The notes under the pieces were generated by a model. The model searched no databases. It was not told where the DNA came from and was given only the letters and a program-made list of their open reading frames with translations. This document shows positions 1,835 through 35,722 of a stretch of 38,206 nucleotides of DNA, piece by piece (the stretch's first letter is position 1; each line of letters begins with the position of its first letter). The translations under genes and the position numbers were made by a program. The stretch comes from a virus: IMG/VR virus record IMGVR_UViG_3300015171_000014, positions 1-38,206 of that record; one strand, given 5' to 3'.

Positions 1835-2041
1835 ATGAGCAAACCCAAAACAACTGAGCCGCGCCCCTGCAAAAATCCCGATTGCGGAAAAATATTCTCG
1901 CCGACACGCGGGCGCGAGAAACAGATGTACTGCTCCAAGGCGTGTAAATATACGCATTACAAGCGCAATAAAACAGAGTGGCCCCAGCCGCCGGAGCCTG
2001 CGATTGGGGGGATTTTGCGTGGGTGGATATGCAGCCGTTAG
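1835..2041 (+). CDS. Small zinc-finger protein (68 aa)
   Basis: ATG 1835 follows the VRR-NUC stop by one base; an in-frame ATG at 1811 would lie inside that gene. The sequence has a four-cysteine pattern, PCKNPDCGKIFSP then YCSKACKY, typical of small zinc ribbons that recognise nucleic acid or hold partners. The tail is Pro-rich. The end overlaps the methyltransferase start by 13 bases, so translation is probably coupled. Function unknown. Confidence 0.7.
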   Translation: MSKPKTTEPRPCKNPDCGKIFSPTRGREKQMYCSKACKYTHYKRNKTEWPQPPEPAIGGILRGWICSR

Positions 2042-2961
2042 CCATCGACCTGTTCTGCGGCCTAGGCGGCTGGTCGGAAGGCTTGCTCGCGGAAGGCTGG
2101 CAGGTTATCGGCTTCGACATCGAGCGCCACGAATACGGCGACGAAAAATACCCCGCGCAACTGGTTTTGCAAGACGTGCTGACGATCCACGGCTCGCAAT
2201 TCAAGGATGCCGCGCTCATAGTTGCCTCGCCGCCCTGCCAGGAATACAGCTACATGGCTATGCCGTGGAGTCGGGCGAAGGCTATCCGCACTGAGTACCT
2301 GTCGGGCGTGCGCGACCGCTCCAAGTTGACCGCGCTATTCGACGCCTGTTTCCGCATCCAGCGCGAGGCTTGCGAAGCGGCTGGTCGGCATATCCCGATG
2401 GTGGTTGAGAACGTGCGCGGCGCCTGTGAGTGGGTCGGGCGGTCGCGGTGGAATTATGGGTCGTTTCATTTGTGGGGCGATGTGCCGGCGTTGATGCCGA
2501 TGACGAAGGGGGTGCAGAAATTCAACCCTGATGGCACAGATCATCCGACCGGCTCATGGTTCGCTGTTGCTGATAGCAAGAATCGCGGCGCACGCGAAGG
2601 AGGTCAGAAAACCCCAGCAGGAAATTGCTCAGAGACAATGTGGAAAGACAGCCCGATTGCGAGGCTTGCTCACGCGACACCGGCAGAAATGGAACTTCAC
2701 GGCTTCAAAGTCCCCGGCTTCCGCTTCGACGGCAGCGGGAAGTCGTTTCAGACGGCGAGCGTAGCGGCTGCGGAGAATGGCGCAAAAGGCTATGTACCAG
2801 AAGGTACGCAGGCATTAGGCAAGCACGGCCATCCGCGAATCTTGCCACAGATCGTCAACAAAACCGGTTCCGGCAGCAAAGCCCGCAAAGCCGCGAGCGC
2901 GAAGATTGCGAAAATTCCGCTGCCGCTTTCGCGGTATATCGCCAGCGTGTATAAGCCATGA
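2029..2961 (+). CDS. DNA C5-cytosine methyltransferase (Dcm-like, 310 aa)
   Basis: The S-adenosylmethionine motif I reads DLFCGLGGWSEG (residues 7-18). The catalytic motif IV is ASPPCQEYS with nucleophile C70, and motif VI is VVENVRG (125-131). These are the hallmarks of cytosine-5 methyltransferases. The protein is short, and the usual target-recognition region and late motifs are hard to place after about residue 180, so its specificity cannot be read. I chose ATG 2029, which places motif I at the N-terminus as in the family. Methylation of phage DNA to evade restriction is the likely role; neighbours are a nuclease, zinc fingers and a second methyltransferase. Confidence 0.85.
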   Translation: MQPLAIDLFCGLGGWSEGLLAEGWQVIGFDIERHEYGDEKYPAQLVLQDVLTIHGSQFKDAALIVASPPCQEYSYMAMPWSRAKAIRTEYLSGVRDRSKLTALFDACFRIQREACEAAGRHIPMVVENVRGACEWVGRSRWNYGSFHLWGDVPALMPMTKGVQKFNPDGTDHPTGSWFAVADSKNRGAREGGQKTPAGNCSETMWKDSPIARLAHATPAEMELHGFKVPGFRFDGSGKSFQTASVAAAENGAKGYVPEGTQALGKHGHPRILPQIVNKTGSGSKARKAASAKIAKIPLPLSRYIASVYKP

Positions 2962-34476: not shown

Positions 34477-34808
34477 TTCCTCCCCTCCCCTCTCAGTTCC
34501 GCGAGCTTGGCGGCAGGAAGCGCATCGGCTTCTAATTTCATAGCGTGGGCGTGCGCTTGCCATGCCTCTGACCGGCGCATGTAAAATTGCCACTTTTCCT
34601 CAAGCTCACCCACCCGCACCTCAAGGCTTGCGGCTCGCTCGCTCGCGGCAGTCAGCGTGGATTTGAGGGCGGTTAGCTCGCGTTCGAGGGTGCGGGCGAA
34701 GTCGGCCCACTCACGGAGAATGTCCGTAACGAGTTCATCGTTGCACCATCTGTTAGCGACTGCATCCGTGCGCGGTGTCTGCGTCTCGGCGCCTGCGGGA
34801 TTGGTCAT
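34473..34808 (-). CDS. Coiled-coil early protein (111 aa)
   Basis: After a polar N-terminus (PRTDAVANRWCNDELVTDIL), residues about 40-78 form a heptad-like coil (LERELTALKSTLTAASERAA; LEVRVGELEEKW) that suggests dimerisation. Similar short coiled-coil proteins are common in phage early operons. It is directly downstream of the DpdA-like gene with ATGA overlap. Confidence 0.6.
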   Translation of the reverse strand: MTNPAGAETQTPRTDAVANRWCNDELVTDILREWADFARTLERELTALKSTLTAASERAASLEVRVGELEEKWQFYMRRSEAWQAHAHAMKLEADALPAAKLAELRGEGRK

Positions 34809-35401
34809 AGTGCAAGTTCCTTTTGGTGATCCATTTTATAAATGCTTTCACGCATCCACGAAAACCGCGAAAGCCCAGTGCCGTCTATGCTGTCAGCGCC
34901 CATTTTCTCGAAGTACTCGAAACGCGCGGGAGTGTTGACGCGACCAATGTGTACCCACTTCCCAAGAATCTTGGCGGCTTGAACGATCTGTTTTGTGTAC
35001 TCAGAAAGTTTGAAATCAGTTGTCCCGCCGATAAATACAGTTTCTATGCTTTCCCACGGAATAGGCAAATCCTGTTGGCCGTCCTGAATCGCCAAGGCTA
35101 ACGGCCAGCCTGCAAGGCGTTCGCACCACCTATGGAATATCTCAAGCGTGCGCCTTGCGCTTCCCACCACGTCAGGCACCGTCACAAAAATGCACTGACT
35201 GCGCCGCTCGGATTCCCGTTCCAGCAGAGCAAGAAATTCCCTTTCCTTGAATCTCGAAAATGCGCCGTTATCCACCGCGAAACGAGCGTCTGGGCGTTGC
35301 AAGCGGAACCTGGTCAACGGGGTCAGCAGTTGCTGCACCACGCATCCTATTTCCTTCTCGCATGTATCCAGCGATTCGCTGGTATCAAGCAGCACGAGCA
35401 T
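34805..35401 (-). CDS. TGT-superfamily protein, DpdA-like (198 aa)
   Basis: The spacing of motifs follows the tRNA-guanine transglycosylase barrel: AVDNGAF (42-48, like DSGGF), FVTVPDVVG (72-80, D77), ALAIQDGQ (102-109), VFIGGTTDFKLS (122-133), HIGRVNTPARFEYF (151-164) and GADSIDGTGLSRF (168-180, D173 where TGT has its nucleophile Asp). In phages, short stand-alone TGT relatives are mostly DpdA proteins that exchange guanine in DNA for a 7-deazaguanine such as preQ0. No zinc-binding C-terminal domain is present, unlike tRNA TGTs. Activity and substrate are inferred. The gene lies mid-operon, overlapping a 31-residue membrane ORF upstream and a coiled-coil gene downstream. Confidence 0.6.
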   Translation of the reverse strand: MLVLLDTSESLDTCEKEIGCVVQQLLTPLTRFRLQRPDARFAVDNGAFSRFKEREFLALLERESERRSQCIFVTVPDVVGSARRTLEIFHRWCERLAGWPLALAIQDGQQDLPIPWESIETVFIGGTTDFKLSEYTKQIVQAAKILGKWVHIGRVNTPARFEYFEKMGADSIDGTGLSRFSWMRESIYKMDHQKELAL

Positions 35402-35480
35402 GTGGCACCCAAATGATAAAAGTGGTCAGCGCGACAATCACAAAACCTACAAACAAAAGTTCGCGCCAGAATTTCAACAT
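35385..35480 (-). CDS. Single-span membrane micro-protein (31 aa)
   Basis: ATG 35480 opens MLKFWRELLFVGFVIVALTT, one hydrophobic helix, ending WVPHARAA before TGA. It overlaps the 82-residue gene by 7 bases and the DpdA-like gene by 17. It is too short for common gene finders. Hydrophobicity and chain overlap support it, but it could also serve only to couple translation. Confidence 0.5.
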   Translation of the reverse strand: MLKFWRELLFVGFVIVALTTFIIWVPHARAA

Positions 35481-35722
35481 TCGCACGTCACCTCAACGCC
35501 GGAATGAATGCCTTTGCTGATGACTTTCGCGCCTAATGTGCGAGCTGCCAATTCCGTCAGCGCCTCTTGAAATATCGCGGCGTCCTTTTGACTGTCGAAA
35601 AAAGCAAGAATGTCCTCGACTTTGATTACAGACTGCGAAATAACTGTAATCGCGTATGAGTCTAGGACGGACTGATCGACCGGACATTTGGCGCGAACAT
35701 TTAACCTATATTCGGCTCTCAC
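35474..35722 (-). CDS. Small protein, possibly T-fold-like (82 aa)
   Basis: The N-terminal YRLNVRAKCPVDQSVLDSYA, then KVEDILAFFDSQKDAAIFQE, and the C-terminal KVISKGIHSGVEVTCEC. The order (CP-x-x-x-Q then D, a helix with F-x-E, a final G-x-H-S-G-V strand) is loosely reminiscent of QueF-type T-fold enzymes of 7-deazaguanine metabolism, but the protein is short and the match is by eye. It is two genes before the DpdA-like gene in the same operon. Overlaps the DUF551 gene by 4 bases. Confidence 0.6.
   Translation of the reverse strand: MRAEYRLNVRAKCPVDQSVLDSYAITVISQSVIKVEDILAFFDSQKDAAIFQEALTELAARTLGAKVISKGIHSGVEVTCEC

Follow-up and report, generated by a model that had tools for sequence, protein, structure and literature searches.

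Modification of DNA with 7-deazaguanines is an established feature of phages. Among the described systems closest to the locus considered here, Pantoea phage MED16 contains dADG in its DNA though dpdA is its only gene of this kind (PMC8306585), and Salmonella phage 7-11 contains trace dADG (PMC6884629); in our comparison, the DpdA of 7-11 is of the same type as that of MED16. Orion, another phage with DpdA only, has no modification, and phages Dp-1 and HVTV-1, which encode proteins called QueF-L by HHpred, have mostly dPreQ1 in their DNA, not 2′-deoxyarchaeosine (dG+) (PMC6884629). QueF-Like itself uses ammonia in place of the NADPH hydride on a shared thioimide intermediate (PMC5485725). Regarding precursor supply, YhhQ is the preQ0 importer of E. 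coli (PMC5372724), and the host genus of the cluster P mycobacteriophages has no preQ0 pathway (PMC6884629).

The window, i.e., the whole stretch of viral DNA that was analysed (38,206 nucleotides, IMG/VR record IMGVR_UViG_3300015171_000014), carries a gene for a small DpdA-like protein, hereafter mini-DpdA, with a queF-like gene directly upstream. The features of this gene pair are as follows, the residue matches to bacterial TGT being those of a forced profile alignment:

34805..35401, minus strand: mini-DpdA, a TGT/DpdA-superfamily barrel protein of 198 aa, with its ATG at 35401 and without internal stop
35270..35272, minus strand: D44 of DNGAF, aligned with the general-acid Asp of TGT (Zymomonas D102, in TDSGGFQ)
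35171..35173, minus strand: D77 of PDVVG, aligned with PDII of MED16 DpdA and LDGIGD of 9g-type DpdA
35084..35086, minus strand: Q106 of QDG, aligned with the Gln of TGT VQGG (Q203)
34883..34885, minus strand: D173 of DSIDGT, aligned with the nucleophile Asp of TGT (Zymomonas D280, in FDC)
35474..35722, minus strand: QueF-like (QueF-L) T-fold protein of 82 aa, whose GTG start overlaps the previous stop codon
35684..35686, minus strand: C13 of the QueF-like protein, which aligns in the CP motif with the Cys that forms the thioimide in QueF (Bs C55)
35385..35480, minus strand: ORF of 31 codons that lies between the queF-like gene and mini-dpdA and encodes a hydrophobic stretch; a possible gene, judged from its sequence only

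The mini-DpdA ORF belongs to a widespread family with a typical size of about 200 residues. Relatives with 33–54% identity were found by tblastn in 24 phage records, including Synechococcus phages (54%) and cluster P mycobacteriophages (41%), and pattern- or alignment-based scans retrieved at least 405 relatives in viral contigs; the ORF is therefore not a chance one. The scans also retrieved 54 relatives in cellular genomes and 171 in plasmids. The protein is assigned to phrog_15826 (1e-38), a group of unknown function, and some members of the family are already labelled “DpdA-like” in GenBank, those of the cluster P mycobacteriophages being annotated as “DpdA-like tRNA-guanine transglycosylase.” Pfam and NCBIfam gave no significant match for mini-DpdA, a sequence search of the PDB was equally unhelpful, and megablast of the window against phages returned no match.

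Several members of the family are found in unusual settings. In the Seuratviruses phiG7 (L007:12866-13524) and SHIN8 (L015:5866-6524), mini-dpdA is split over two overlapping frames between the DNA polymerase clamp gene and the polymerase gene, and represents either a pseudogene or a frameshift. Caballeronia and Paraburkholderia genomes and megaplasmids (L109-L148, L314:4710-6181) encode a divergent clade of 220–290 aa, in many cases directly followed by a PP-loop gene with the motif SGGKDST (PAPS-reductase-like), and one plasmid with a member of this clade has SMC, phospholipase D and VapC genes nearby, a defence-like setting. Genes of the PAPS-reductase family also adjoin or lie near mini-dpdA in Rhodococcus phage ReqiPine5 (L011:8616-9533) and Erythrobacter phage R6L (L014:9346-10389). 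A further clade is represented in 134 records of Pseudomonas plasmids, one of them a P. aeruginosa megaplasmid of 365 kb (L312:7749-8612).

In an alignment of 79 diverse family members (A2), D44, P76, D77, Q106, G125, G126, K131, H151 and D173 are invariant (79/79). An earlier reading of the same DNA, made from the sequence alone, had proposed the 198-residue ORF as a DpdA-like protein following the motif order of the TGT barrel, with D44, D77 and D173 at the positions of the key TGT aspartates and without the zinc domain of tRNA TGT. The ORF holds up and lies on the minus strand, which that reading had not given. The motif order is borne out by the forced alignment, which also places AIQDG on the VQGG-type Gln segment and FIGG on AIGG, but a direct profile comparison of A2 with bacterial TGT is weak (E=0.011). 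D44 and D173 fall on their TGT counterparts, but hhalign aligns D77 with the “SDIV” Asp, which precedes the DEC Asp by a few residues, so that its equivalence to TGT D156, suggested by strand order alone, is less certain. Inspection of all the Cys and His residues of the protein (C14, C20, C70, H90, C93, H151 and H192) confirmed that the zinc-ligand Cys/Cys/Cys/His cluster is absent.

AlphaFold (AF2) predicts a confident TIM barrel for mini-DpdA, with alternating strands and helices (pLDDT 95.5, pTM 0.91). The best single Foldseek match in the PDB is ThiG (7.5e-6), followed by many TGT structures from 6.6e-5, and queuine transglycosylases of Bella96, Sonali and others stand near the top among viral models. 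Scores like those of TGT are also reached by ThiG, pyruvate kinase and others, so that the fold by itself cannot decide the family. The best viral fold match, BFVD A0A0F7L9Z1 (499 aa), comes from an uncultured marine virus, aligns partially (TM 0.76 on the query) and is possibly a fused form of mini-DpdA. The structure search thus left standing the question of an unrelated barrel, which the sequence-only reading had named as one outcome that would refute it, and profile comparison answered it in favour of DpdA. The ThiG match, together with a sub-threshold Pfam match to EAL that covers 50 residues, would fit a chance resemblance to TGT of an unrelated TIM barrel (ThiG, glycerophosphodiesterase or EAL type); this explanation is scarcely credible and is strongly disfavoured by the profile match to DpdA (6.8e-9, with ThiG at the noise level of 0.4) and by the adjacency to queC, queD, queE, yhhQ and queF-like genes described below.

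Profile comparison by hhalign relates A2 to DpdA of the MED16/7-11 type (E=6.8e-9) and of the 9g/CAjan type (E=3.1e-5), the negative controls ThiG, QueC and QueE giving 0.08–0.5. Searched over whole reference genomes, the A2 HMM detected the DpdA of MED16 (5e-7), the full-length DpdA of Sonali (5e-5) and the DpdA of 7-11 (1e-3), with a doubtful match in CP220 (0.016) and nothing at E≤1 in the genomes of nt-1 (DpdA2), HVTV-1, Dp-1, CAjan and 9g; the comparison with later DpdA subfamilies consists of these sequence searches of reference phages. PF01702 (tRNA TGT) has no match in the record at E≤10. Together, the profile comparison and the reference-genome search indicate that the mini-DpdA family is homologous to DpdA yet forms a branch of its own. 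The assignment as a DpdA-like enzyme linked to 7-deazaguanines, already made in the sequence-only reading, is well supported: the profile match is to the DpdA of a phage in which dADG has been measured, and genes of the preQ0 pathway recur next to mini-dpdA.

Indeed, queC, queD, queE or yhhQ is found immediately beside mini-dpdA on the same strand, often with an overlap of a few bases. After clustering at 80% identity, one of these four genes lies within 400 bp of mini-dpdA in 26 of the 52 non-redundant viral clusters (the assignments of L016 and L017 in this count being taken from a separate search), compared with 50 of 1369 control ORFs, i.e., the other ORFs of the same viral loci; the remaining half of the viral clusters has no recognised Que neighbour. 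The same holds for 8 of 26 cellular clusters. Neighbours were identified with Pfam and NCBIfam as QueC (PF06508, 2e-44), QueD (PF01242, 2e-27), QueE (TIGR04508, 2e-46, below the curated cut-off) and YhhQ/Vut_1 (PF02592, above the cut-off in all five tested, as well as Majeke gp53). The two nearest relatives of the window protein (72% and 71% identity) have a divergent queD, above the Pfam cut-off, directly upstream, and the gene for a plasmid homologue (54%) is followed by yhhQ. These conserved neighbours support 7-deazaguanine chemistry for the family. Short genes resembling queD by eye only are also present beside the mini-dpdA genes of L006, L054 and L058.

The same neighbourhoods bear on the possibility that mini-DpdA modifies host tRNA and alters decoding during infection, its Que neighbours raising the supply of queuosine. 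The TGT superfamily works on tRNA, and in cells yhhQ and the que genes contribute to the queuosine of tRNA (PMC5372724). Three actinobacterial genomes (L106, L111 and L149) have yhhQ adjoining mini-dpdA and no TGT match, so that a role in tRNA queuosine is unlikely for the precursor imported there. This absence, the missing zinc domain and homology to DpdA rather than to TGT make the tRNA explanation decidedly improbable; moreover, we know of no role of archaeosine synthase in bacterial tRNA, which counts against it in view of the queF-like gene of the window.

Full-length DpdA (phrog_887) is absent from most records with mini-DpdA, some of which are fragments, and mini-DpdA is thus the only candidate inserter there. 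On the other hand, Sonali, R29Z, phiG7 and the viral locus L003 encode a full-length DpdA and have genes of the preQ0 pathway in addition to mini-DpdA, which is hence not the sole inserter in those phages. In these four, mini-DpdA might have an accessory role, removing or recycling modified bases or setting sequence specificity together with full-length DpdA. As an account of the family, such a role is improbable given the many records in which full-length DpdA was not found and the invariance of every catalytic-type residue.

With the gene at 35722-35474, which the sequence-only reading had overlooked, archaeosine (or preQ1) takes the place of preQ0 as the predicted base. The product of this gene is homologous to that of an ORF adjoining mini-dpdA in L001 (1.7e-9). 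By hhalign, a profile of the QueF-like proteins of the window, L103 and Aoka (gp39) matches QueF at 6.1e-9 (controls 0.2–0.8), and a larger viral QueF-like set does so at 1e-5 (controls 0.03 or worse). Pfam QueF (PF14489) has no match in the window record, and the L103 homologue stands at the cut-off (27.3 bits). The pairing with mini-dpdA is conserved: a scan with the L001 homologue, used because the four-sequence QueF-like alignment was too diverse as a query, returned eight loci, with mini-dpdA directly upstream in seven of the seven that have the full gene and queD close downstream in five of the loci. No relatives were returned by a viral scan with the window QueF-like protein itself. Its AF2 model (pLDDT 85.7) has the order beta-beta-alpha-alpha-beta-beta, and its top 11 fold matches in the PDB are all archaeosine synthase QueF-L (5k0p/5jyx; 3e-6, TM 0.81), ahead of the reductase QueF (2.6e-3). 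The catalytic Cys (C13; alignments A6 and A7), Asp and Glu are invariant in the QueF-like alignments, and the window protein has VEDILAFF in place of the QueF motif for NADPH (E-S/L-K-S-x-K). The protein thus resembles archaeosine synthase in its predicted structure and would be expected to convert preQ0 to archaeosine in an ammonia-dependent manner.

The modified base could nevertheless be a different one: mini-DpdA would still be the inserter, and the QueF-like protein would either act as a reductase and yield dPreQ1 or do little and leave dPreQ0 or dADG. The QueF-L proteins of Dp-1 and HVTV-1 went with dPreQ1 (PMC6884629), and MED16 and 7-11 contain dADG, but the replacement of the NADPH motif in the window protein and its better fold match to archaeosine synthase than to the reductase render this outcome unlikely, if far from negligible.

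As to the precursor, the sequence-only reading had seen no folE, queD, queE or queC homologue in this DNA, and none came to light in the 38 kb record, which has no Pfam match for FolE, QueD, QueC or YhhQ (PF01227, PF01242, PF06508 and PF02592), no local-HMM match for QueE and no full-length DpdA (phrog_887). No end repeats are present in this linear record, which may be incomplete. With neither preQ0-synthesis genes nor yhhQ in this possibly incomplete record, a precursor supplied by the host fits. Elsewhere in the window, Pfam matches one protein to C5-cytosine DNA methyltransferases; it is probably the product of an ORF with a PPCQ motif (1978-2961, plus strand), a further possible DNA-protection gene.

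Given the genes, their homology, their conserved residues and pairing and their predicted folds, we consider it reasonably probable that the pair is a two-gene cassette for 7-deazaguanine DNA modification, in which mini-DpdA inserts host preQ0 and QueF-L converts it to dG+; we infer the DNA substrate, the source of preQ0, the final base and the protective role. According to this scheme, mini-DpdA would be a reduced DNA-guanine transglycosylase that flips a guanine of phage DNA into its barrel, where D173 would attack C1′ of the deoxyribose while D44 assists the release of guanine, and preQ0 from the host queuosine pathway would take the place of the guanine. The Cys of the adjacent QueF-like protein, which lacks the NADPH-binding motif, would then attack the nitrile, and addition of ammonia would yield dG+, which may shield phage DNA from host restriction enzymes. 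The main uncertainty of this mechanism is the final base, given the dPreQ1 of Dp-1 and HVTV-1, and the second is the coexistence of mini-DpdA with full-length DpdA.

The phage of the window thus probably uses archaeosine, made from a precursor that the host supplies, to disguise its DNA. A broader and more tentative proposal is that the family constitutes a separate, minimal (~200 residues) DNA-guanine transglycosylase which, in phages, prophages and plasmids, travels with one or two helpers (queC, queD, queE, yhhQ or QueF-L), each phage supplying only the step or the uptake that its host lacks; here, QueF-L would make the DNA deoxyarchaeosine. Mini-DpdA is the smallest form of the inserter among those compared here, falls outside the DpdA groups of the tested reference phages, and occurs with single helper genes instead of a full pathway. 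In the literature consulted, which covers DpdA subfamilies incompletely, no description was found of the small inserter, the one-helper cassettes or the pairing with QueF-L, and an earlier description may exist. The family makes it testable whether phages with a “singleton” DpdA are modified and from which precursor, and the gene pair of the window whether QueF-L can produce archaeosine on DNA. For instance, cluster P mycobacteriophages bearing yhhQ are predicted to be modified only when the precursor is present in the medium.

Compared with the known systems, mini-DpdA shares with the DpdA of MED16 and 7-11 the DNGAFS and PDxV motifs, an equivalent strand order, and H and D/S motifs late in the barrel, and in these phages, as in the window, dpdA is found without preQ0-synthesis genes. 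However, the MED16/7-11 DpdA is 261 aa long and has WHLHESID in strand 3 and GSSG in strand 4, where mini-DpdA has QDG and GGTT, respectively, and the significant local alignment between the two covers the first part of the barrel only (95 columns). The 9g/CAjan DpdA of the Queuovirinae has the motif D-S/N-G-A-F and the GG in common with mini-DpdA, and LDGIGD where the latter has PDVVGD, but is longer (306–317 aa, with a C-terminal extension) and is encoded in phiG7 by a separate gene beside the mini form. Majeke gp54, from a cluster P mycobacteriophage, and gp81 and gp40 of the Arthrobacter phages Sonali and Aoka belong to the mini-DpdA family itself (~34% identity) and differ in their neighbours, which are yhhQ in Majeke, yhhQ and a queF-like gene in Aoka, the full pathway in Sonali and a queF-like gene only in the window. 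Finally, the archaeosine synthase QueF-Like of Pyrobaculum, 22% identical to the window protein, has the same T-fold and Cys/Asp pair and likewise no NADPH motif, but whereas QueF-Like of archaea acts on preQ0-tRNA (PMC5485725), the window protein presumably acts on DNA.
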